Shown here one piece after another: positions 3,478 through 28,334 of a DNA stretch of 28,334 bases. The stretch is from a virus. The translations under genes were made by a program, and so were the position numbers. Position 1 is the first letter of the stretch; each line of letters begins with the position of its first letter. The stretch spans positions 1-28,334 of the IMG/VR virus record IMGVR_UViG_3300031957_000123; one strand, given 5' to 3'. The notes beneath the pieces are model-generated. The model was not told the origin of the DNA, did no database searches, and saw nothing but the letters and a program-made list of their open reading frames with translations.

Positions 3478-3644
3478 TGGTGCTTTACACCGAAGACCAA
3501 CTACGTAAAGCGTGGATCGAACACTTGATCTCACTTTACTTGGTTGAGACCGAGCAAAACATTGAACTGGGCAACTACCCAGACATTGAAGAGTTCAGAG
3601 AAACCTTTGAACAAGAGCTTGAGGAAAACCCTGAAGTTAATTAG
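3477..3644 (+). CDS. Small acidic protein, unknown function (55 aa)
   Basis: Lying between the primase-helicase and DNA polymerase, this gene starts at an ATG sharing one base with the helicase stop (TAATG) and ends 19 bases before the polymerase start. The product MVLYTEDQLRKAWIEHLIS... is predicted mostly helical. It is acidic (about 15 Asp/Glu, three Lys/Arg), with a Glu-rich C-terminal half (FRETFEQELEENPEVN). It has the same length as the acidic gene upstream of the helicase but no clear sequence similarity to it. Small genes sit in the same interval in T7 (4.1 to 4.7), but I cannot assign homology. The coupled start and compact spacing are the main support. Confidence 0.65.
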   Translation: MVLYTEDQLRKAWIEHLISLYLVETEQNIELGNYPDIEEFRETFEQELEENPEVN

Positions 3645-3663
3645 TCACTGCGGAGACAGGGCA

Positions 3664-5370
3664 ATGAAGTACATCTTAGATATAGAAGCAGACAACCTAC
3701 TTGATGACATCACAACCATTCACTGCGTTGTGTTAAGAGATGTCGATTCTGATAACACATTCTCATTTTATGGTGAAAAAATTAAAGAGTGTGTACATGT
3801 CATCCAGAACGCTGACCAGATCATTGGTCACAACTTAATTGGTTACGATCTTCCTGCCTTGAAGAAGGTATGGGGATACGAACATCAAGGTGACGTTCTA
3901 GACACACTCGTCTGCTCCCGCACCATTTGGCCTCACCTCATGCAACTGGATGCGGAGAAAAAGAAGCTTCCAACAAAGCTATGGGGATCTCATTCCCTGA
4001 AGGCCTGGGGTTACCGTTTAGGAGAACTGAAAGGTGAATATAGCGAAACTAACGATGGGGCTTGGGAAAAATTCAGCCAACAGATGTTGGACTACTGCGT
4101 ACAGGACACGAAAGTTACGCAAGCACTGTACGAATGCATCATGGCGAAAGCGTTCTCAGAGGATGCGCTTACTCTTGAGCACAACATCGCTTCCGAAATG
4201 TTTAAGCAAGAGCAGCGCGGATTCGTGTTCGCTGTTAGTGACGGCCAGAAACTCTTTGCTGAGTTATCGCAGAGGAAGAATGACATCGAGGTTTCTTTGC
4301 AATCTCAATTTACTCCAACTGTGGTTCAACTCAAGACCAAAACAAAAGAGATTCCATTCAACCCTGCTTCTCGTCAACAGATTGCAGAAAGGCTTCAAAC
4401 CCTCGGATGGAAGCCCGAAGTATTTACTGAGTCGGGCATACCTAAGGTAGATGAAACTGTTCTGTCAGAGATTGATCTGCCTGAAGCCAAGCTCCTTGCT
4501 GAATACCTAATGCTCAACAAACGCATTGGTCAGTTAGGTTCTGGTAAGCAGGCGTGGTTGAAGCTAGAGAAAGAAGGAAAGATACATGGGCGCGTTAATC
4601 ACATGGGTTGCGTTACATCTCGTTGCACCCATTCGCAACCAAATTGTGCTCAAGTCCCGTCAGTTTCAGCACCTTATGGGCGTGAGTGTCGTGAGCTTTT
4701 TACTGTGCCTGATGGTTATTCCCTTCTTGGAGCCGATGCAAGCTCACTTGAACTTCGCTGTCTTGCCAGTTATATGGCTCCTTTTGATGGTGGTGCTTAC
4801 GCGCTAGAGGTAGTTGATGGTGACATCCACACAGCTAACCAAGAAGCTGCAGGGTTACCAACCAGAGCAACCGCTAAGACATTTATCTATGGATTCCTCT
4901 ACGGAGCAGGAGACGAAAAAATTGGTCAGATCATTAACAAAGGCGCAAAAGCAGGCAAGGCAATTAAGAAGAAATTTCTTGATAAAGTCCCCGCCCTTAA
5001 AAAGCTCAGAGATGCAGTCTCAGAAGCAGCCAAGCGTGGATGGATCAAAGGACTCGATGGAAGACAAGTCCCAGTAAGACATCCTCACGCAGCACTCAAC
5101 ACACTTCTGCAATCAGCAGGTGCAATCATCTGTAAGCGGTGGTACGTCCAAATTGAAGACGACTTACGCGCTGACGGTTACACAGAAGAAGATGTTGCGA
5201 TAGTGGCGTTTGTCCACGATGAAGTACAAATTCAAGTGAAACAAGGATTGGAAGATGCAGTTGGAAAACTTGTCATACGGTCAATGCACAAAGTTGAACA
5301 AATTTACAGTTTCAGATGCCCACTCGATGCAGAGTATACCTATGGACGTAACTGGGCAGAAACCCACTGA
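3664..5370 (+). CDS. Family-A DNA polymerase with 3'-5' exonuclease (T7 gp5-like), no thioredoxin-binding insertion
   Basis: This 568-residue enzyme is the replicative polymerase. Proofreading motifs are visible: Asp6/Glu8 (DIEAD), IGHNLIGYDLPAL, and YCVQDTKVTQ. Polymerase motif A is GADASSLELR (Asp358). Motif B is RATAKTFIYGFLYGAG, with Arg401, Lys405 and Tyr409 at the position equivalent to T7 Tyr526. Motif C is FVHDEVQ (Asp519). The end, YGRNWAETH, parallels T7 NWAICH. T7 gp5 has 704 residues; here the segment joining the exonuclease to the thumb (about residues 213-233) is short. The roughly 80-residue thioredoxin-binding insertion appears absent. The ATG at 3664 follows GGAG and starts exactly at the conserved exonuclease N-terminus; codons further upstream lie in the previous gene. 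The 3' end overlaps the next gene by 29 bases. Confidence 0.96.
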   Translation: MKYILDIEADNLLDDITTIHCVVLRDVDSDNTFSFYGEKIKECVHVIQNADQIIGHNLIGYDLPALKKVWGYEHQGDVLDTLVCSRTIWPHLMQLDAEKKKLPTKLWGSHSLKAWGYRLGELKGEYSETNDGAWEKFSQQMLDYCVQDTKVTQALYECIMAKAFSEDALTLEHNIASEMFKQEQRGFVFAVSDGQKLFAELSQRKNDIEVSLQSQFTPTVVQLKTKTKEIPFNPASRQQIAERLQTLGWKPEVFTESGIPKVDETVLSEIDLPEAKLLAEYLMLNKRIGQLGSGKQAWLKLEKEGKIHGRVNHMGCVTSRCTHSQPNCAQVPSVSAPYGRECRELFTVPDGYSLLGADASSLELRCLASYMAPFDGGAYALEVVDGDIHTANQEAAGLPTRATAKTFIYGFLYGAGDEKIGQIINKGAKAGKAIKKKFLDKVPALKKLRDAVSEAAKRGWIKGLDGRQVPVRHPHAALNTLLQSAGAIICKRWYVQIEDDLRADGYTEEDVAIVAFVHDEVQIQVKQGLEDAVGKLVIRSMHKVEQIYSFRCPLDAEYTYGRNWAETH

Positions 5371-7316: not shown

Positions 7317-7496
7317 ATGATTTGGATTCTGTTTGTAATCCTCGTCAACGGTGAGCAGTACATGGTCAAGCCTGATTCCGTGCATCCAAGCATGGATTCA
7401 TGTTTTGACCGTAGAGATCAAATTGTTGCTGAGGTAGGAAAACCAATCATCAATTATCAAGTTATCTGCGTCCCGTCTGACCAAGGAACATTATGA
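7317..7496 (+). CDS. Hypothetical protein with hydrophobic N-terminus (59 aa)
   Basis: This short gene fills the gap between DUF3310 and nrdA. The ATG at 7317 follows AAGGA (7305-7309) and the stop overlaps the nrdA start by ATGA. The product begins MIWILFVILVNGEQYMVKP. The short hydrophobic start (about 9 residues) could be a buried beta-strand or a weak secretion signal rather than a full membrane segment. Two cysteines (DSCFDRRD and VICVPSD) could pair if the protein were exported. Small proteins of this kind are common in phages, but I do not recognise the family. Gene-chain coupling is the strongest support. Confidence 0.65.
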   Translation: MIWILFVILVNGEQYMVKPDSVHPSMDSCFDRRDQIVAEVGKPIINYQVICVPSDQGTL

Positions 7497-9235
7497 CCGA
7501 CTATCTCGGAATTAAAATTGATAAAACAAGAAATGAGAACTTCTCGGAACAAGCGTTAGCGTTGCTATCGTTTTATTGTTTAGATGGAGAAGATCCCCAA
7601 GAAGCATTAGCTCGTGCATCCGTTGCCTACTGTGAAGGTGACCTAGCATTTGCACAACGTATTTATAACTACGCATCAAAGCGTTGGTTCATGTTCGCAA
7701 GTCCTGTGTTGAGTAATGCTCCCCTACCTGACCAAAAGCCAACTGGCCTACCGATCTCCTGCTTCCTAACCTACGTAGCAGACAACCTCTACTCATTGAT
7801 CGAGCACAATACTGAAGTGTCTTGGTTATCTGTGAAGGGTGGTGGAGTCGGTGGTCACTGGTCTGATATTCGCGCTGTCTCTGATAAGGCTCCAAGCCCT
7901 ATTCCATTTCTAAAAGTTGTTGATAGTCAGATGACAGCATACAAGCAGGGCAAGACTCGCAAAGGCTCATACGCAGCCTACATGGATATTAGTCACCCTG
8001 ACATTGTGGAGTTTATTGGTATCAAGATCCCTACTGGGGGTGATTCCAATCGTAAATGTTTCAACCTATTTAACGCAGTCAACATCACTGATGACTTTAT
8101 GACTGCCGTGGAGAAAGATGATGTCTGGCAACTCAAAGACCCCTATGACGGAACTGTCCGAGATACAGTCAAAGCTAGAGGATTGTGGGAAACAATACTT
8201 AAAGCTCGCTTCCGAACTGGCAGTCCTTACCTCAACTTCATTGACACAGCCAACCGAGACCTTAACCCGTTTCAGCAAGAACTTGGACTCCGTGTTAATG
8301 GCTCTAACTTATGCAACGAGATACACCTCGTCACTAACGAAGACCGAACTGCAGTCTGCTGTCTCTCCTCAGTCAACCTTGAAGAGTACGACAAGTGGAG
8401 CAGAACCAACATGGTCAAAGACTTGGTTAGATTACTGGACAACGTACTGTCCTTCTTTATTCAGCACGCGCCAGAAGAATTAAGTAAGGCGAAGTTCTCA
8501 GCAATGCGGGAGCGTTCTATTGGTTTAGGAGCTATGGGATTTCATGGCTACTTACAAAAGAACAACATCCCCTGGGATTCTTTACCTGCTCAATGGCGTA
8601 ATGAAAGTATGTTTGAGGTAATCAAGAAGCAGGCAGTTGAAGCGAGTAGGACGATTGCACAGGAGAAGGGAGAACCTCTAGATATTCTAGGTTCTGGTAT
8701 GCGGAATGCACACCTTATCGCTATTGCTCCTAATGCAAACTCATCAATCATCTGCGGATGTACTCCGTCCATTGAACCACTGAAGGCTAACGCTTTTACC
8801 CATAAGACACGGGCAGGTTCACATCTAGTGAAAAACAGATACTTGGAGGAACACCTTGAAGAAATTGGGAGAAACACCTCAGAGGTTTGGAAAAGTATTA
8901 TTAACAATGAAGGCTCAGTCCAGCATCTGGAGTTCCTCAGTGCCGATGTCAAAGAGGTTTTTAAAACCGCGTTTGAGATTGACCAAGGCCACGTTGTTGA
9001 CCGTGCTGCAGAGAGGCAACCATTTGTCTGTCAAGGTCAATCCGTCAACCTCTTTTTCCCCGCAGGGTCGCCTGCGAGCTATATCAACTCTGTACACCTT
9101 AGAGCCTACAAGAAAGGACTCAAAGGCCTTTATTACCTACGCACTTCCGCAGGCTATGAAGCAGACAAGGTGGGTCTCAACGTGGAGCGTGTTGCTCTTC
9201 AGGACGCGGAAGAGTGTTTGAGTTGTCATGGATAA
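7493..9235 (+). CDS. nrdA: Class I ribonucleotide reductase, alpha (catalytic) subunit
   Basis: This enzyme reduces ribonucleoside diphosphates to deoxy forms for phage DNA synthesis. The key residues are all visible. Cys90 (PISCF) and Cys290 (CCLSSVNL) are the active-site pair. Asn272, Cys274 and Glu276 (NLCNEI) are the thiyl-radical site. Tyr547/Tyr548 (GLYYLRTS) belong to the radical-transfer path, and the C-terminal Cys575-x-x-Cys578 forms the shuttle pair for re-reduction. APNANSSIICGCTPSIEP is a typical catalytic-domain motif. At 580 residues it is shorter than E. coli NrdA (761). It begins near E. coli residue 150, so the N-terminal ATP cone used for overall dATP inhibition is missing. 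The start overlaps the preceding stop (ATGA); the 3' end overlaps the next small gene by 8 bases. The beta subunit is encoded 368 bases downstream. Confidence 0.96.
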   Translation: MTDYLGIKIDKTRNENFSEQALALLSFYCLDGEDPQEALARASVAYCEGDLAFAQRIYNYASKRWFMFASPVLSNAPLPDQKPTGLPISCFLTYVADNLYSLIEHNTEVSWLSVKGGGVGGHWSDIRAVSDKAPSPIPFLKVVDSQMTAYKQGKTRKGSYAAYMDISHPDIVEFIGIKIPTGGDSNRKCFNLFNAVNITDDFMTAVEKDDVWQLKDPYDGTVRDTVKARGLWETILKARFRTGSPYLNFIDTANRDLNPFQQELGLRVNGSNLCNEIHLVTNEDRTAVCCLSSVNLEEYDKWSRTNMVKDLVRLLDNVLSFFIQHAPEELSKAKFSAMRERSIGLGAMGFHGYLQKNNIPWDSLPAQWRNESMFEVIKKQAVEASRTIAQEKGEPLDILGSGMRNAHLIAIAPNANSSIICGCTPSIEPLKANAFTHKTRAGSHLVKNRYLEEHLEEIGRNTSEVWKSIINNEGSVQHLEFLSADVKEVFKTAFEIDQGHVVDRAAERQPFVCQGQSVNLFFPAGSPASYINSVHLRAYKKGLKGLYYLRTSAGYEADKVGLNVERVALQDAEECLSCHG

Positions 9236-9377
9236 GCTAAAACAAAAGCTTCTAAAAGTTTACTTAAAACTCTTAAAAGCTCAGGTCAACCATAGTTGGG
9301 ACAAGGCACGCAAGCATCACACACGCTACCTTGAACTATCTTTGAAGATCAAACGATATGAATCCAAGAAACGGTAA
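9228..9377 (+). CDS. Small basic protein, unknown function (49 aa)
   Basis: Overlapping the nrdA stop by 8 bases, this frame encodes MDKLKQKLLKVYLKLLKAQ... ending KIKRYESKKR. The N-terminal 19 residues make an amphipathic, Lys/Leu-rich helix, and the whole protein is strongly basic, with many Lys, Arg and His. A second helix (YLELSLKIKRYESKK) follows. It may bind nucleic acid or membrane, or may be a short helix-turn-helix-like hairpin. I do not recognise a family. Support comes from the coupled start and end (20 bases of overlap with the next frame) and the absence of another gene here. Confidence 0.55.
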   Translation: MDKLKQKLLKVYLKLLKAQVNHSWDKARKHHTRYLELSLKIKRYESKKR

Positions 9378-9498
9378 AGGATCCGCGCCTCGTAGGGGGC
9401 GTGACCAATCTAAATACGAACTTAATTACGACAGGATATTCAAAAAGAATGACGACAAGAAAGACAACAACTGCTCCAAAGCAGACAGAGGTAGATGA
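9358..9498 (+). CDS. Small conserved-type phage protein, NGKG...YDRIF pattern (46 aa)
   Basis: The product MNPRNGKGSAPRRGRDQSKY... continues with ELNYDRIFKKN. Short proteins with an N-terminal (N/K)GKG-x-x-PR motif and a following Tyr/Trp-Asp-x-Ile-Phe segment are, from memory, common in cyanophages and other marine phages, where they are unannotated. The first part is basic and probably disordered. The ribosome-binding site is weak (GAAG). It overlaps the preceding small gene by 20 bases and the next by 50. The overlap makes annotation less certain, but the recognisable pattern makes it more likely than the competing GTG at 9401. Confidence 0.6.
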   Translation: MNPRNGKGSAPRRGRDQSKYELNYDRIFKKNDDKKDNNCSKADRGR

Positions 9499-9625
9499 CG
9501 ATTACCGCACCAAGGCGATTGTTGCTGCCATCCTGATTCATAAAGGGACACCAGTAAAAGCATCAATGGAAAACGCAGATTGGATTGTGGAGTCTCTGAA
9601 GAATGAGTCTGTTAGAAGCAAGTAA
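9449..9625 (+). CDS. Hypothetical protein (58 aa)
   Basis: The first ATG in this frame is at 9449, with a partial site (AGGA, about 9433). The product has a Thr/Lys-rich start (MTTRKTTTAPKQTEVDDDY) and then RTKAIVAAILIHKGTPV and ASMENADWIVESLKN. The latter part could fold as two helices joined by a turn. A GTG at 9401 would add 16 residues, but they lie within the overlapping NGKG-type gene. The 3' end overlaps nrdB by 23 bases, which suggests coupling to reductase beta-subunit translation. No family recognised. Confidence 0.5.
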   Translation: MTTRKTTTAPKQTEVDDDYRTKAIVAAILIHKGTPVKASMENADWIVESLKNESVRSK

Positions 9626-10556
9626 AGTATATAAACCTTTCAAATATCCGTGGGCTGTCAACTTCGCCATTGACCATGAAAAGATTCATTGGGGCGAATG
9701 GGAAGCCAAGCTACAAGAAGATGTAGCACAGTGGATGGACGGTAAGCTGTCCCCCACAGAAAAGAATCACATCACACAGATTCTCCGATTATTCACTCAG
9801 ACAGATGTACAGGTAGGAACTAACTACCTTGAGTACTACATCCCTAAGTTCAAGAACAACGAAGTAAGGGCAATGCTGTCTTCTTTTGTGAATCGAGAGT
9901 TTGTACACCAACGAGCTTATGCACTTCTGAATGACACTCTTGGTTTACCAGAAGAGGAATTTGCATCGTTTACCTATGTAAAAGAGATGTCGGACAAACT
10001 GGAGTTCATGTCCGATATAGACGTACATAGCCATTCAGGAACAGCCCTAGCCATTGCTCGATCAGTAATGAATGAAGGCATGTCTCTATTCTCTGCATTC
10101 GTCATGCTTCTTAACTACCAACGCTTCGGCAAAATGAAAGGCATGTGCGAGATCGTAGAGTGGTCAGTACGTGACGAAACTATGCACTGTGAAGGAATGG
10201 TCAAGCTATTCCGCACTTTCTGCGATGAGCACTCCAGGATTGTTACAGATGAGTTTAAAGCAACTATCTATCAAATGTTCCGTGACGCTGTTGAACTTGA
10301 GGATAAAGTTATTGACCTATCGTTTGCGATGGGCGATGTGGAAGGCCTCACGGCTGAGGAAGTTAAGTCATACATCCGATTCATTGCTAACCGGAGACTT
10401 ACGCAACTTGGACTTAAACCCAACTGGGAAGCGATCACGGATAATCCGCTTCCTTGGTTAGATTGGGTATTAAATGGCACTCGCCATACTAACTTCTTTG
10501 AGGGAGTTGTTACGGACTACAACGCCTCAGGAATCGAAGGTGATTGGGGGTGGTAA
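9603..10556 (+). CDS. nrdB: Class I ribonucleotide reductase, beta (radical-generating) subunit
   Basis: The 317-residue product carries the complete dimetal site: Asp68 (TQTDVQ), Glu99 and His102 (REFVHQ), Glu158 (NEGMSLF), Glu192 and His195 (RDETMH). Tyr106 lies four residues after His102, the place of the radical Tyr122 of E. coli NrdB. This points to a metal-tyrosyl radical enzyme rather than one of the Tyr-less subclasses. The N-terminal YKPFKYPWAVNF matches the family start. It partners with the alpha subunit encoded at 7493-9235. The ATG at 9603 overlaps the upstream small gene by 23 bases and has a weak ribosome-binding site, consistent with coupled translation. It is the last gene before the virion-module promoter candidate. 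Confidence 0.95.
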   Translation: MSLLEASKVYKPFKYPWAVNFAIDHEKIHWGEWEAKLQEDVAQWMDGKLSPTEKNHITQILRLFTQTDVQVGTNYLEYYIPKFKNNEVRAMLSSFVNREFVHQRAYALLNDTLGLPEEEFASFTYVKEMSDKLEFMSDIDVHSHSGTALAIARSVMNEGMSLFSAFVMLLNYQRFGKMKGMCEIVEWSVRDETMHCEGMVKLFRTFCDEHSRIVTDEFKATIYQMFRDAVELEDKVIDLSFAMGDVEGLTAEEVKSYIRFIANRRLTQLGLKPNWEAITDNPLPWLDWVLNGTRHTNFFEGVVTDYNASGIEGDWGW

Positions 10557-23800: not shown

Positions 23801-24618
23801 GCGGGGTTGAAGTAGCAAAAGAGATTGCTTCAAAGACCTTAGCTGTTGTCGTGGATAACATCCTTGGTAAGTCGTCCCTTATGGGAGCCAGTCAGTTGAC
23901 GGATGCTCTCAGTTCACCAGACAAGTTCGGAACATACATCGAGAGCTTTGTTACTTCCTTCGCCCCTAACATCGCACGTGATATTGGTGAGCTAGAGGCA
24001 GGAGCACAAGCCCGTGAGAATGGAACACTGCTTAATAAACTGCAGGCTAAGATTCCAATCTTGATGAACTCTGTTGGTCTGAAGTATGACGACTTCGGTA
24101 GACCGATACAAAAAGATACTGGGTTCTTATACATCTTCCCTGCCTTCAAAGAAGCAGAAGACGTAGATCCCATTGAAGAGCTTATGTACGACTTGCGCGT
24201 ACAGTTTGATCGAACAGGCTCTCTTGCCTCCATGCCTTACAGTTTGAATGTAGGCACATTGGATACTGACTTTAGAACCATCTTTGATGGAGATGCCTCT
24301 AGCGGGATATCTGTCTACGGTAAGTTCCACCAGTTACTAGGGGAGGTGAGACATCCTGCTTATGGTAACAAGACCCTCTACGATGCAATTTCTCAACGAG
24401 TCAGACAGCGTGACTTTGCAGCCATGATGTATGGCAACGAAGCCATGTCTCCTCCTGCCCTCAAGGAACTCTCAGGAATATTCAAAGCCTATCGAGATCT
24501 AGCTTTAGAAGATCTTAGGAAAGAATCTCCTGCCTACCGCGAGAAGGTGAAGGAAGAAGAAGACAAGAAGATACAAGCATCGAAAGATATTATCCGAAGA
24601 CTAAGGACTGGAAGGTAA
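20866..24618 (+). CDS. Internal virion protein gp16-like (DNA-ejection protein)
   Basis: This 1250-residue protein is the longest in the window (T7 gp16, 1318 aa). In T7, gp16 enters the cell envelope, makes the inner-membrane part of the ejection tunnel and carries an N-terminal lytic transglycosylase. In this protein the N-terminal 120 residues show no transglycosylase Glu-Ser/GLMQ-type pattern. There are hydrophobic segments, including AAFGNIINLFLYPFLRKLAG and AVGTAIMAGSVALAASGGL. A conserved marine-phage block follows: GPGDPVQRRLWLKAGYKPLS, then WISYKAIEPFATPMAIAADL. Start 20866 is preferred to ATG 20860, because AGGAG (20855-20859) is spaced correctly only for 20866. The stop overlaps the fibre gene by one base. 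Confidence 0.85.
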   Translation: MATLDDLLAVPTATDEEETEASQAGVTVEVVPSGLDKLSQLPEVTEVPALKEEDLYTDPTWIANARRMAELQRGTAMLGVPDADASDEEFAKFGISYMGQFNYNLYNMATDALDVASWEPEDATAFVDLMQTYDKLPNFTMSGTGRLLKGLASDPSTYLGVGLLARAFGVNTAGKASVKALVERGFKQKTAESLVKRVGIYTTASVEGGLYSSADNAMRQSVEIDAGVREAFDIEQNLTATGYGILFGNGLAGVLDVGSAAYKSMRSKTKAESRLASEQQPTSEGTPETPEASTQGDTAPSQADVLDNTEQPTVTADEVNRVLDEAESAPTPNELAAARNEINRDANSGLNLERVNDKGEAVPVIPRNRDQEIISETGDVSLRPAPIGSKNLNSLETTDDVKRLVEERAVRHEAKLVKMDGYNGGKQTLEQAEREAKESVLQIARDLGDETDRTSALFEKLKDEAKDDIKLMRQIQARALAINEIMTETAAKLVEMAKKNPDEFTNKDKAEFMQLKDVLDSLSVMDGLYSRQFSRNLGSRRVTRGTWAILDALNDPKLRKSNQAADEFAALHDAVKTSYGDIKLLRQKTKPSALIKALGKLNSFRTEAMISGASTQQAAAFGNIINLFLYPFLRKLAGRKIGGERGARIRAEAAIQVNAYRMYAKEAWDAAKLAFRLGEALTDPSSTRLERDAFNLDLDKSQTFLGKLNVFKGQFTLFGDLMSGYDEMAKYLFTRSRAYARAYTELSRMKPDLTPEQLRLEADAYVRRLADPSTGQFKDKQIVEESRAITFTQDINDGVIGQIISRVANAGGGIGRLLAFPFVKAPLNIVSVGMSMIPGTARISQRQMNVINTFKTARQNLEDFNAGRLPDADADQLKKEFEFAEEQMAVLQAKKAVGTAIMAGSVALAASGGLTGNGPGDPVQRRLWLKAGYKPLSVWDPIRKKWISYKAIEPFATPMAIAADLTYFIQHEFGGLDQGGVEVAKEIASKTLAVVVDNILGKSSLMGASQLTDALSSPDKFGTYIESFVTSFAPNIARDIGELEAGAQARENGTLLNKLQAKIPILMNSVGLKYDDFGRPIQKDTGFLYIFPAFKEAEDVDPIEELMYDLRVQFDRTGSLASMPYSLNVGTLDTDFRTIFDGDASSGISVYGKFHQLLGEVRHPAYGNKTLYDAISQRVRQRDFAAMMYGNEAMSPPALKELSGIFKAYRDLALEDLRKESPAYREKVKEEEDKKIQASKDIIRRLRTGR

Positions 24619-26621
24619 TGGCATACAGTTATATAGAGTATACGGCAGACGGTAGCACCACTACCTTCTCCGTTCCCTTTGACTACACAGCCCAAGCTGA
24701 TGTCAAAGTGTTTGTAGGCGGGGTGGAAGACACCTCGTTTACTTTCAATTCAAACTCTGTAGTTCAAACGTCCACTACTCCTGCTTCAGGGGTGGTGGTG
24801 CGTGTTGAGCGTAATACAGACCTAGACTCACGAGCCGTGGACTTTGCTTCAGGCTCCGTATTAACAGAAGAAGACCTTGATAACTCTAATATTCAGGTTT
24901 ACTTCGCAGCCCAGGAGGCGATTGATACTGCAGAATCTGCACTCATTCAGACTCCTGATGGTAAGTGGGATGCTCAATCCCGTGTGATTAAGAACGTCAC
25001 TGATCCAACCAATGCTCAAGATGCAGTCACTAAGAACTACCTTGAGAACACTTGGCTCACCTTGTCAGACAAAGCGCAGCTTAATGCTCTAAACACCGAC
25101 AACCTCAACCGAGTGCATACCTCTATTGATGAGTTGGATCGTGTCCATACGTCTATCGACAACTTGGATCGTGTTCATACTTCTATTGGTAACATTGATC
25201 GCGTAGATCAGTCCATCGACAACGTAGACCGAGTACACACTTCAATCGCCAACATTGACCGTGTGGAAGACTCCATCGCTAACGTAGATCGCGTAGCAAC
25301 TTCAGCCGACAACCTAGACCGTGTTCATACCTCGATTGGTAATGTAGATCGTGTCGATCAGTCGATTGATAACGTAGACCGTGTGGCTACCTCTGCGGAC
25401 AACCTAGATCGTGTTCACACTTCTATCGGTAAGTTAGATCGTGTTCATACATCTATCTCTGCGGTAGATACAGTAGCGGCAGACCTGAATGAGCCTACGT
25501 CTGAAATCGAGACAGTGGCTAACTCAATCACGAACGTCAACAATGTTGGCAATGACATTGCGTCAGTGAATCAAGTATCGACAGACATCGCGGATGTCCG
25601 GCAGGTTGCTACAGATACCGTAGCTCTCAACAGTGTCTACAACAACATCAGTGCAGTCTCGAACGTCAGCACAAACATGACAGCAGTTACAAACGTCAAT
25701 ACAAACATGGCGGTTGTGACAAACGTGTCTAACAACATGGCTGACATTCAGGCTGTTGAGGCAGAAGTAGCAAAGGTTGTCGCAGTCGCTAATGATCTAG
25801 CAGAAGCTACCTCAGAGATTGATGTAGTCGCAGGGTCAATTGCGAACGTAGACCTTGTTGGTGGTTCGATTAGTAACGTCAACCAAGTTGCGGCTAATCT
25901 GGCAGACGTAAACAACTTTGCGGATACCTATTTCGTAGGAGCTACAGAACCATCATCACCAACTACAGGTGACCTATGGTTTGACTCTGCGTCCTCTACA
26001 ATGAAGGTGTACAACGGTACAGGTTTCGTCAATGCAGGCTCATCAGTCAACGGTGTTGCTAACTCTGTAGAACATACAGCGACAGCTAACCAAGATACAT
26101 TTACTGCAACGTATGATGCAGGTTATGTAGATGTTTACTTAAACGGTGTCTTGCTTGCTACAAGTGACTACACAGCCACTAACGGTTCTAGTGTTGTTCT
26201 CAACACAGGAGCGGCGGCAGGTGACACGGTATTTATCCAAAGCTATGGCACGTTCCAGTTAGCGGATCACTACACACGCACTGAGACAGATAGCCTCATT
26301 GCAAACATTGATGCACTGCCAGACCAGACAGGTCACTCAGGACAATTCCTGACGACTGACGGTACTACGGCAGATTGGGCATCGGTAGACGCTCTACCAG
26401 ATCAGACAGGCCATGCGGGTCAGTTCCTTACTACGGATGGAACGACTGCTTCATGGGCTGACACAGGAGCCAAAGAAGGCATCTTCTGGGAGAACGGTAC
26501 TACCATTTCATCTAATTACACTATCCCGACAAACACCAATGCAGGGTCGTTTGGCCCGATCACTATTGCGAGCGGTGTCACTGTGACCATTAGTGCGGGA
26601 TCAACTTGGACGGTGGTTTAA
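24618..26621 (+). CDS. Tail fibre with T7 gp17-type N-terminal anchor and decapeptide repeats
   Basis: The 667-residue protein binds host receptors. Residues 1-150 match the T7 tail-fibre anchor: TADGSTTTFSVPFDY, RAVDFASGSVLTEEDLD, and then QTPDGKWDAQSRVIKNVTDP. Residues 163-282 are twelve 10-residue repeats of the form LDRVHTSIDN; residues 283-438 hold more divergent copies with hydrophobics at positions 1, 4 and 8. Then come GDLWFDSASSTMKVYNGTGFV, a YLNGVLL beta segment, a 26-residue duplication (DALPDQTGHSGQFLTTDG and its copy) and a C-terminal GPITIASGVTVTISAGSTW. It is the first of a run of fibre-like genes. The stop is followed directly by the next ATG. Confidence 0.92.
   Translation: MAYSYIEYTADGSTTTFSVPFDYTAQADVKVFVGGVEDTSFTFNSNSVVQTSTTPASGVVVRVERNTDLDSRAVDFASGSVLTEEDLDNSNIQVYFAAQEAIDTAESALIQTPDGKWDAQSRVIKNVTDPTNAQDAVTKNYLENTWLTLSDKAQLNALNTDNLNRVHTSIDELDRVHTSIDNLDRVHTSIGNIDRVDQSIDNVDRVHTSIANIDRVEDSIANVDRVATSADNLDRVHTSIGNVDRVDQSIDNVDRVATSADNLDRVHTSIGKLDRVHTSISAVDTVAADLNEPTSEIETVANSITNVNNVGNDIASVNQVSTDIADVRQVATDTVALNSVYNNISAVSNVSTNMTAVTNVNTNMAVVTNVSNNMADIQAVEAEVAKVVAVANDLAEATSEIDVVAGSIANVDLVGGSISNVNQVAANLADVNNFADTYFVGATEPSSPTTGDLWFDSASSTMKVYNGTGFVNAGSSVNGVANSVEHTATANQDTFTATYDAGYVDVYLNGVLLATSDYTATNGSSVVLNTGAAAGDTVFIQSYGTFQLADHYTRTETDSLIANIDALPDQTGHSGQFLTTDGTTADWASVDALPDQTGHAGQFLTTDGTTASWADTGAKEGIFWENGTTISSNYTIPTNTNAGSFGPITIASGVTVTISAGSTWTVV
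25104..25463 (+). repeat. Twelve tandem 30-base repeats inside the tail fibre gene
   Basis: Each unit encodes ten residues of the pattern (L/I/V)DRVHTSIDN, with HTS replaced by DQS, EDS or ATS in some units. The units are in frame and diverged at the base level (gtg/gtc/gta and cat/cac alternate). The array is therefore held by protein structure, with possible unequal crossing-over between closely matching units. Confidence 0.9.
25464..25931 (+). repeat. Divergent continuation of the decapeptide repeats
   Basis: Ten-residue units continue with V/I/L at positions 1, 4 and 8 and Asn or Asp common at 2, 7 and 10. The array is broken twice by 14-residue units with the same ending (VDTVAADLNEPTSE and VVAVANDLAEATSE). 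It ends just before the FVGATEPSS segment. Confidence 0.75.
26310..26465 (+). repeat. Two tandem 78-base repeats in the tail fibre C-terminal region
   Basis: The two 26-residue units are DALPDQTGHSGQFLTTDG... and DALPDQTGHAGQFLTTDG.... They differ at only a few residues, but their codons differ widely, which points to an old duplication kept by selection. The motif is common in phage tail fibres near the receptor-binding tip. Confidence 0.85.
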
Positions 26622-27179
26622 ATGGCAAGTGTATTACAAGTCGAAGAATTGCGTGGCCCCAGTAGTGGGGCTAACGCTAATAAAGTAATTATCCCTAGTG
26701 GGCAGACGTTGGAGATAGCAGGGAGTGCGTCTGGCCTTCTCACAGAGATGCCTAGTGGGTCAGTAATCCAAGTAAAAACAGCGTATATGCCTAGAGCATC
26801 TTCCGTCTCTGTGAACACTAATTATTCGGTTGATATTGGATTGAATGTAACGATCACTCCATCCTCAGCCACAAGTACGTTTCTTGTGATGATTGATTTT
26901 TCAATTGATGCGCTAGGTGACTCGCATTTTGATGCTCAGTTATACCGCAGAGAAAACGCCGCAGATACAGCCATAGGTAGTGGAGAGGCGTTTCAAGATG
27001 CGGCTAATTTTGGTGGATCAAACCAACATGGTCATGGGTACGCTTACTCCTTCTTGGATACACCAAGCACAACTAACGAATTGACCTACAAATTTCTAAT
27101 GAAGGATGGCGGGGCAAACAACATTATCGCGCATCATACAGGCGCATCAAATATGACAGTTATGGAGATCGCAGGATGA
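26622..27179 (+). CDS. Fibre-like virion protein, paralogue 1 of 3 (185 aa)
   Basis: The product begins MASVLQVEELRGPSSGANAN, includes LPSGSVIQV-like MPSGSVIQVKTAYM and VTITPSSATSTFLVMIDFSI, and has FLDTPSTTNELTYKFLM near the end before the closing MTVMEIAG. The same blocks, in the same order and at similar spacing, occur in the next two genes. The sequence is beta-rich and lacks enzyme motifs. Position directly behind the fibre gene and the resemblance to small tail-fibre-associated proteins in marine phages suggest a receptor-binding or fibre-tip accessory role. The start follows the fibre stop directly (TAAATG). Confidence 0.78.
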   Translation: MASVLQVEELRGPSSGANANKVIIPSGQTLEIAGSASGLLTEMPSGSVIQVKTAYMPRASSVSVNTNYSVDIGLNVTITPSSATSTFLVMIDFSIDALGDSHFDAQLYRRENAADTAIGSGEAFQDAANFGGSNQHGHGYAYSFLDTPSTTNELTYKFLMKDGGANNIIAHHTGASNMTVMEIAG

Positions 27180-27694
27180 GTACACTTATTGTAAACACCA
27201 TCGATGCTCCTTCTGGGCAGACGATCTCCGCTCCTGATCTTCAGTTACCAAGTGGGTCTGTGGTGCAGGTACGCAATAGACTCAAATCCAATATGGAAGC
27301 CTACACTAGCCATGCGTGGCACACGGTTTTGGAAGATACCATCACACCTTCAAGCTCTGCCTCTACAATCTTAATCACAGGTATCGTTGCGTTCTCTATG
27401 TCAGGCGGAGATGGAATGGTTCGTATTGAGAGAACGGTAAATAGTATAGCAACAGTAATTGGTGGCGGAACAGAAGGTTCTAACTTAAATGGTATCGCAG
27501 GACAGGCTTCTGGTTCGTATAACGCTATGACCACTCTTGCGGCTTGTTCGTATGAAGATTCCCCATCAAGTTCTTCTACTGTTACCTACAAATTGCAAAT
27601 TCGTGGGGACAACACGTTATATGTAAACAGGCGAGGAGTAGGTACAGATTTTGGATCAGGAACATATCTTACACTCATGGAGATCGCAGGATGA
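27176..27694 (+). CDS. Fibre-like virion protein, paralogue 2 of 3 (172 aa)
   Basis: The product starts MSTLIVNTIDAPSGQTISAP. It shares with its neighbours LPSGSVVQV, DTITPSSSASTILITGIVAF, a middle IERTVNSIATVIGGG, and EDSPSSSSTVTYKLQIR before the identical ending LTLMEIAG. The middle regions are otherwise very different from paralogue 1, the pattern expected of receptor-binding variation. It overlaps the genes on both sides by ATGA, so the three genes form one coupled unit. Confidence 0.78.
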   Translation: MSTLIVNTIDAPSGQTISAPDLQLPSGSVVQVRNRLKSNMEAYTSHAWHTVLEDTITPSSSASTILITGIVAFSMSGGDGMVRIERTVNSIATVIGGGTEGSNLNGIAGQASGSYNAMTTLAACSYEDSPSSSSTVTYKLQIRGDNTLYVNRRGVGTDFGSGTYLTLMEIAG

Positions 27695-28218
27695 GCAGTA
27701 TAATCAAAGTCGATCAAATCCAGACTGCGGCAGGCGGTACTCCAAGTTTATCTGATTTGGGTATTGCGACGACTGGTACGGGTAAGGTGCTTCAAGTTGT
27801 AAATAACACATACAGCACAGACACAGCAATTAACACCACGAGCTACACTAATAGTGGTTTGCTTGGCGTTATTACACCGACAAGCACATCTAGTAAAATT
27901 TTAGTACTGATTCAACTTGCTGTGAGGCTAAGTGGTACGTTTGACCACGGTGCTAGTTTTAAAGTTGAGAGAGATAACAACGGCACAACTACTGACATAT
28001 GGGCATCCGCAGGTACGCTAGATAGTTATATCTACGCTAACTCAGGCTCAGTCGATTCTAGAAGGAGAGAAGGTTGGGTAGTTTTAGATACTCCGAATAC
28101 AACCAATGAGTTGGACTATCGTATCTATGCACGTTCCATGCGTACTGACAACAATAATGATTGTCGTTTACATCAAAACAGCACCTCAACAATCACACTC
28201 ATAGAAATCGCAGGTTAA
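27691..28218 (+). CDS. Fibre-like virion protein, paralogue 3 of 3 (175 aa)
   Basis: The product starts MSSIIKVDQIQTAAGGTPSL, a pattern often seen at the N-terminus of small marine-phage fibre proteins. It continues VLQVVNNTYSTDTAINTTSY, VITPTSTSSKILVLIQLAV and FKVERDNNGTTTDIW. Near the end it has LDTPNTTNELDYRIYARSM and closes TLIEIAG. The blocks match paralogues 1 and 2. Its start overlaps paralogue 2 by ATGA and a 12-base gap separates it from the next gene. Function inferred as receptor binding or fibre accessory; not demonstrated. Confidence 0.78.
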   Translation: MSSIIKVDQIQTAAGGTPSLSDLGIATTGTGKVLQVVNNTYSTDTAINTTSYTNSGLLGVITPTSTSSKILVLIQLAVRLSGTFDHGASFKVERDNNGTTTDIWASAGTLDSYIYANSGSVDSRRREGWVVLDTPNTTNELDYRIYARSMRTDNNNDCRLHQNSTSTITLIEIAG

Positions 28219-28230
28219 ACAGGAGGCCAC

Positions 28231-28334
28231 ATGGCATCAATTGCACAAGCTCTCTCAGAGCTAAACATTACAGAATGGGTTCTCCGTGGAGAGCCTACAA
28301 CAGAAGCAGAGTTCAACGAAATGTTCCGCAAGGT
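28231..28334 (+). CDS. Start of an uncharacterised phage protein (cut by window end)
   Basis: Only 34 full codons are present: MASIAQALSELNITEWVLRG... then EPTTEAEFNEMFRK. It has an excellent ribosome-binding site (AGGAGG, 28221-28226). From memory, short phage proteins with an EWVLRGEPT-E-EFN pattern are common next to tail-fibre genes in marine phages. Function is unknown and most of the gene lies outside the window. Confidence 0.8.
   Translation, partial: MASIAQALSELNITEWVLRGEPTTEAEFNEMFRK

Follow-up and report, generated by a model that had tools for sequence, protein, structure and literature searches.

Three tandem genes behind a T7-type tail fibre encode putative fibre tips with position-specific tags and exchanged heads

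Directly behind the tail fibre gene of the viral DNA analysed here, three small genes probably (about two chances in three) encode detachable receptor-binding fibre tips that carry position tags and exchangeable jelly-roll heads, are expressed as a coupled unit and are assembled with the aid of a chaperone. Computation established that the three genes are paralogues, gave a predicted fold for genes 1 and 2, and showed how many tip genes relatives carry and in what order; it also revealed tags specific to each position, heads traded inside a slot as well as across slots, and a dual-coding joint between the genes. The window, that is, the whole stretch analysed, was a 28,334-base IMG/VR virus record; coordinates refer to it, and all features of the tip region lay on the plus strand.

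Results

Genome context and fibre stem

The gene order of the window was T7-like: the end of an RNA polymerase gene, replication genes, ribonucleotide reductase, portal, scaffold, capsid, tail tubes, internal core protein and fibre. The portal and capsid assignments were supported by homology. Large and small subunit genes of ribonucleotide reductase (7493–9235 and 9603–10556), recognised from the translated sequence, were present in this 28-kb podovirus record.

The fibre gene (24618–26621) encoded a T7 gp17-type tail fibre of 667 aa, assigned with PF03906 and PHROG tail fibre families. Residues 2–145 matched Pfam PF03906 (Phage_T7_tail, E = 5.5e-35), indicating that the T7 gp17 N-terminal domain was present, and the protein is probably the stem that carries the three tips. 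It closed with the C-terminal beta motif GSFGPITIASGVTVTISAGSTWTVV (26544–26618), an ending type common upstream of tip arrays, which we propose as the candidate docking platform. Within the stem, a repeat of approximately 10–14 residues (LDRVHTSIDNLDRV...) occupied 25110–25450; this stretch was 29–56% identical to that of the sister virus L155, and its flanks were 78–96% identical. Fibre residues 227–405 (25296–25832) matched the '60 kDa protein' of PDB entries 9lc0, 9yf4 and 9yf5 (556 aa, 84 chains; E 3e-13), and residues 295–395 matched PHROG 29955 'appendage'; this part is possibly a repeat stem shared with another kind of phage appendage.

Three coupled paralogous genes

Three tandem open reading frames followed the fibre, encoding proteins of 185 aa (slot 1, 26622–27179), 172 aa (slot 2, 27176–27694) and 175 aa (slot 3, 27691–28218), as an earlier note on this DNA had described and the list of open reading frames bore out. 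The fibre stop codon (26619–26621) abutted the first ATG of slot 1 with a gap of zero, and ATGA overlaps joined genes 1 and 2 and genes 2 and 3, in agreement with the earlier claim of one coupled unit. The sequence blocks reported for the three products were real, but in the alignment slightly looser than first written: (S/T)GxVxQV, ITPxSxxSxxL(V/I), D(T/S)PxxxxxxxY and a final EIAG. The products were 29–37% identical in the alignment. Pairwise BLASTP among them gave E values of 3e-15, 7e-16 (genes 1 and 3) and 4e-6, and a shuffle test with 2000 composition-preserving shuffles per pair gave Z scores of 19.9, 19.4 and 9.5, with none of the 2000 shuffles reaching the observed score. The three genes are paralogues.

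The slot 1/2 joint, GGAGATCGCAGGATGA (27164–27179), encoded the terminal EIAG and stop of slot 1 and supplied slot 2 with a GGAG ribosome site and its ATGA start; the same sequence at the slot 2/3 joint (27679–27694) held the slot 2 end, the ribosome site and the slot 3 start. Across loci, the glutamate codon of the final EIAG was GAG in all 53 slot-1 genes and in 48 of 52 slot-2 genes, which yields GGAG approximately 10 bases before the next start, and GAA in 34 of 38 slot-3 genes, where a separate AGGAGG precedes the chaperone. The window obeyed this rule, with GGAGATCGCAGGATGA at 27164 and 27679, and GAAATCGCAGGTTAA followed by AGGAGG at 28221 after slot 3. The conserved EIAG end of genes 1 and 2, listed earlier as a protein block, thus also serves as the Shine–Dalgarno site of the next gene.

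Predicted fold and family

Genes 1 and 2 were modelled as single chains with AlphaFold2, using alignments of related loci (gene 1: pLDDT 85.2, pTM 0.78; gene 2: pLDDT 84.4, pTM 0.79). Both heads were modelled as all-beta jelly rolls. At the N-terminus, the monomer models showed no secondary structure over the initial 47 (gene 1) and 30 (gene 2) residues. The slot 1 protein could be divided into a tag (residues 1–45, VLQVEELRGPSSGANANKVIIPSGQTLEIAG..., 26622–26756) and a head (residues 46–185, 26757–27176). The corresponding parts were 27176–27253 and 27254–27691 in slot 2, and 27691–27780 (MSSIIKVDQIQTAAGGTPSLSDLGIATTGT) and 27781–28215 in slot 3. The gene 1 model was closest to the Photorhabdus TNF-like lectin PLTL (9ib7_A; Z 15.2, with 128 residues superposed at rmsd 2.1), with further matches to chlamydial Pgp3 (Z 14.1), the Burkholderia BC2L-C lectin domain (Z 13.8) and C1q/TNF proteins (Z approximately 10). 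Gene 2 matched the Pgp3 C-terminal domain (Z 15.0), PLTL (Z 13.6), BC2L-C (Z 13.0) and the C1q domain of Caprin-2 (Z approximately 10.5). Genes 1 and 2 are therefore predicted to have a TNF/C1q-like jelly-roll fold whose nearest relatives are trimeric bacterial TNF-like lectins and Pgp3. The fold search also listed IBDV VP2 and eukaryotic TNF; these matches were discounted as a resemblance common to jelly rolls in general. Gene 3 is placed in the same superfamily on homology. Since genes 1 and 2 had the same predicted fold and gene 3 was homologous to gene 1, the unrelated folds that the earlier note had named as evidence against its reading were not found.

A Pfam search with the three window proteins gave no usable match, including to the C1q domain PF00386 at its curated cut-off; the slot 3 protein of another locus, L031, did match PF00386 (25.7 bits, cut-off 23.7). 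In a profile search with PHROG 6942, a tail fibre C-terminal domain, genes 1 and 3 were matched with E of approximately 2e-8 and gene 2 was not matched; the tip proteins of Prochlorococcus phage P-SSP7 were matched with E values of 1e-21 to 2e-26. The tip domain also forms the C-terminus of long fibres, as in PHROG 6942 and in orf22 of PDB 9efk (658 aa, profile E 2e-9). The 18 chains of orf22 in that entry would suit six trimers, and a literature search for it gave no matching paper. Among cultured phages the domain was found in cyanophages, pelagiphages and methylophages. The earlier statement that the family had no assigned function did not hold, given these fibre assignments and the RefSeq label 'tail fiber protein' for P-SSP7 037–039. 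Its suggestion of a link to fibres was supported by the fold, by the fusion of the domain to fibres and by the position between fibre and chaperone. In line with the probability given above for the whole tip cassette, the three window proteins are probably fibre-tip adhesins carried on the virion.

The predicted downstream chaperone

An addition to the earlier description was the start of a further gene past slot 3, at 28231, preceded by its own AGGAGG ribosome site (28221–28226). Its predicted product is a tail fibre assembly chaperone of the PF16778 (Phage_tail_APC) type, with the first 34 codons (28231–28334) inside the contig before the gene ran off its end. All 34 residues aligned to a chaperone profile constructed for this analysis (E = 4.2e-20 for one sequence). 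A full-length homologue, from locus L009, matched PF16778 (E = 4.1e-13) and the PHROG tail fiber assembly family (E = 6e-16). The conserved helical region of PF16778 is C-terminal and lies beyond the contig end; the 34 N-terminal residues in the window matched homologues carrying PF16778.

A three-slot cassette in other viruses

A family-alignment scan of viral contigs yielded 80 loci, or 87 together with the window and cultured records. Exactly three family members were present in 53 of the 87 loci, two of which (L001 and L002) were pieces of the window itself, and the most common join between tip genes in this set was a 4-base overlap (93 joins). Because the family-alignment scan favours the slot-1 tag, the scan was repeated from the downstream chaperone, and the counts of copy number and order were taken from this chaperone-anchored scan. 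Among 30 non-identical loci that were complete from stem to chaperone, 29 had exactly three tips and one had six. The tags stood in the order 1-2-3 in 24 of the 29; the others had one or two unclassified tags, and none was out of order. The 30 loci formed 10 chaperone clusters at 90% identity, nine of which had three tips, and 24 of the 30 fell in a single cluster at 80% identity. Most loci thus belonged to one related group, and tag conservation partly reflects recent ancestry.

The three-slot tip cassette was defined as a stem with a G-P ending, three tips whose tags run 1-2-3 and a PF16778-type chaperone; the window contained all of these, the chaperone as its first 34 codons. The ORF directly upstream of nearly every tip array carried a GPxT...TVxx..TVV ending, usually with a gap of 0 nt. 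The beta motif closing this ORF was G-P-[ILV]-[TE], and in the window the ORF was the T7-type fibre. In a fibre-anchored scan, the cassette was absent behind most T7-type fibres and accompanied G-P-ended fibres, which lead the arrays; fibres with other endings were never directly followed by a head. Behind the G-P-ended fibres of L166 and L167, the first two ORFs were small tip-like genes with another head type. Two T7-type fibres (L158, L160) had their own C1q-like ending (...FDGYLLG) and no tip array behind them, as if fused and detached heads replaced each other. A second small tip-like family (MSTLKADTIQ..., AKxWxxxxGTxxISIRDSxNVSSITDNGTG) was arranged in tandem in a similar way, with G-P-ended adaptors on one side and chaperones on the other (L142, L149, L166 at 8728–9520, and L238 at 3640–4014).

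Fixed tags and exchanged heads

Each slot had its own conserved N-terminus across loci, and each window gene fitted that of its slot: LxVxxLxGPTSGANANKVIIPSGQTL in slot 1, MSTLYVDNLxPNLGS or MSTLKVDSLVEKTSGNGV in slot 2, and MSSIIKVDxIQTAAGGTPTAADLG in slot 3. In a nearest-neighbour comparison of 108 genes, the slot was recovered for 97% by the tag versus 46% by the head; with labels shuffled within loci, recovery was 33% (chance) and at most 47–48%. Slots 2 and 3 were recovered as well as slot 1, though their tags were not the main target of the scan. Twelve loci with 95–98% identical chaperones had tags that were 93–95% identical and heads that were 33–49% identical; their 36 slots held 22 head types, two of which occurred in both slots 1 and 2. 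In Mantel tests, tag similarity tracked the fibre end and the chaperone (r 0.41–0.75), and head 1 tracked neither.

Five head pairs were nearly alike across different slots in the 108-gene comparison. Such heads linked slot 1 of L012 with slot 2 of both L042 and L067, slot 3 of L021 with slot 1 of L033, and slot 2 of L020 with slot 1 of L029; the slot 2 head of the window resembled the slot 1 head of L049 (77% identity). In the closest pairs, DNA identity climbed to approximately 100% at the tag/head junction and stopped in the 3' joint GGAGATCGCA..ATGA. A 52-kb contig (IMGVR_UViG_3300022905_000015) held two tip arrays approximately 39 kb apart (L153, L154), which were 98.8% identical over slots 2 and 3, the chaperone and 5 kb beyond, with unrelated slot-1 heads; this contig may be a joined strain pair instead of a true duplication. 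Two contigs from one sample aligned only at the tags and the chaperone. The closest relative of the window, L155 (portal 95% identical), was colinear with it as far as the end of the fibre, at approximately 80% DNA identity, and its tip set differed right after the fibre stop, with one head of the window family and one of another type. The tags are thus position-specific, and the heads have been swapped within and between slots and between viruses. The paralogues described earlier as the outcome of duplication and divergence hence did not diverge solely in place.

Discussion

Proposed function

In the explanation we favour, the three adhesins would be made together from one coupled message, each consisting of a short N-terminal tag and a TNF/C1q-like jelly-roll head. 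The head probably forms a homotrimer that binds a cell-surface glycan, and the slot-specific tag probably docks this trimer at a defined place, either the C-terminal beta platform of the fibre or the preceding tip; we infer that different tags have different docking sites. The downstream PF16778 protein probably aids folding of the trimers, as in the Pam3 gp24/gp25 pair. Since tag, platform and chaperone are conserved and heads can be interchanged, single heads would be replaced by recombination at two places, the tag/head junction and the GGAGATCGCA..ATGA joint. The virus would thereby bind different targets while the three ordered sites stay filled. The mixed tip set or host-range switching suggested earlier is supported as the likely use; the earlier observation as a whole was confirmed and its interpretation partly supported.

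A bolder version, which we hold only tentatively and judge slightly more likely wrong than right, is a widespread adhesin system of marine phages with three numbered sockets: each fibre would bear three different lectin-like tips in an order set by the tags, heads would move from socket to socket and also pass among viruses built differently, and host range would be combinatorial.

Alternative explanations

Unordered tips are the best-surviving alternative, and we consider them unlikely. Here homotrimers would compete for the same fibre end, producing a random mixture on virions or fibres as a form of bet-hedging. Coupled expression, the interchangeability of heads and a short beta-like start (xxLxVDxI) common to all slots are consistent with such a mixture, but competitors for one site would be expected to converge on one tag, and the tags differed by slot, were kept per slot (with the 97% recovery given above) and stood in fixed order.

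A single heterotrimeric A-B-C tip, each gene supplying one chain as in human C1q, appears improbable. It would account for the usual count of exactly three in fixed order, coupled translation, the C1q/TNF fold and the co-variation of the tags of the three slots (r 0.61–0.86). The heads, however, varied almost independently (head–head r 0.19–0.33) and jumped slots, and a C1q-domain protein can occupy slot 3 next to two other proteins. Copy number in cultured relatives is two or four, and the fused relatives are single-chain fibres. This explanation is weakened because of the independent head exchange, the C1q-type slot-3 heads and the relatives with two or four copies.

The proteins could instead decorate another surface, such as capsid or neck, and merely adjoin the fibre gene. 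TNF/C1q-like domains do decorate many particle surfaces, and a literature search yielded no virion localisation for the family. Yet the tips always had the end of a fibre or adaptor on one side and a tail fibre assembly chaperone on the other, followed G-P-ended stems in direct succession and shared their domain with fibres, so that we rate this reading as a little less probable than the heterotrimer. Plain duplication with divergence in place, with neither exchange nor assigned positions, fits the paralogy but is very improbable: it is contradicted by heads that are nearly the same yet sit on different tags, their DNA identity being bounded by the tag/head junction and the GGAGATCGCA joint, and by heads exchanged inside otherwise near-identical arrays.

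Implications

In marine phages, fibre genes often have small 'hypothetical' genes behind them. Should the tags prove to be addresses and the heads interchangeable lectins, the receptor types of a phage would be readable from sequence. A hypervariable part of the genome would also gain a mechanism, in which fixed joints allow single heads to be exchanged, and separate tests of tag and head would become feasible. Detachable, position-tagged tips also raise the question of why there are three, and whether all three are on each virion.

Comparison with known systems

In the branched tailspike systems of Ackermannviridae such as CBA120, receptor binding is divided among several proteins whose N-terminal assembly parts are conserved and whose C-terminal parts can be exchanged. 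These tailspikes are large enzymes with folded branching domains, whereas the window proteins have tags of 20–45 residues and heads of approximately 140 residues.

Copy number is not universal among cultured relatives: two tips are present in Melnitz, two in HMO-2011 (one with another head type), three plus one in P-SSP7 and four in Lederberg. Like the window, Prochlorococcus phage P-SSP7 has a T7-like gp17 (fibre gene 036); directly behind it lie three small genes of the tip family (037–039), which overlap, and then a small gene, 040, with a chaperone-like YPSxxxQLDxxYH motif. It differs from the window in its other tags and in an extra fourth copy (041) behind the small gene. No function is shown for the P-SSP7 tips in PMC5345008, and a literature search on P-SSP7 virion proteomics and on TNF-like tips of phages yielded nothing that treats this family directly, 037–039 included. 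Methylophilales phage Melnitz (193–196), a cultured T4-like myovirus, and Puniceispirillum phage HMO-2011 (gp41–gp38), a cultured 55-kb phage, likewise have a G-P-ended adaptor (ending GPLTIANNITLTVSGNLTIV in Melnitz), tips and a PF16778-type tail fibre assembly protein; in HMO-2011 the adaptor is followed by a tip of another type, then a tip of the window family and the chaperone. In contrast to the T7-like window, both have two tips and a separate small adaptor, not a T7 fibre stem. The family and its neighbourhood are therefore known from annotation in P-SSP7, Melnitz and HMO-2011, though the literature found gives no explanation of them.

In Pam3, the trimeric fibre gp24 with a TNF-like domain needs the chaperone gp25, whose gene lies directly downstream (PMC9608196). 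A TNF-like fibre followed by its chaperone gene resembles the window, but Pam3 has one fibre gene, an extra glycine-rich tip and docking via an alpha-helical stem (PMC9608196). In metaviromic islands of pelagiphages, according to the accessible text of PMC3909814, C1q-domain genes adjoin the tail fibre, are hypervariable within populations and were interpreted as serving host recognition. The jelly-roll heads beside the fibre are like those of the window; ordered three-slot arrays, position tags and slot-to-slot head exchange are, unlike here, not described in that text. Fibre–chaperone modules are shared across morphotypes in the Alteromonas phages V22 and A5 (PMC7289586, PMC10579305). The resemblance to the window system is that a receptor-binding fibre and its chaperone travel together from one phage to an unrelated one, but the fibre is single and of a different fold, and the whole module is transferred instead of a single head.

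Tags tied to position, a constant number of three and movement of heads from slot to slot were not described in the literature searched, which is weak evidence of novelty. The jelly-roll fold, the link to fibres and the high variability were already known (PMC3909814; P-SSP7 annotation); new here are the slot-specific conserved tags and the exchange of heads between viruses and slots.
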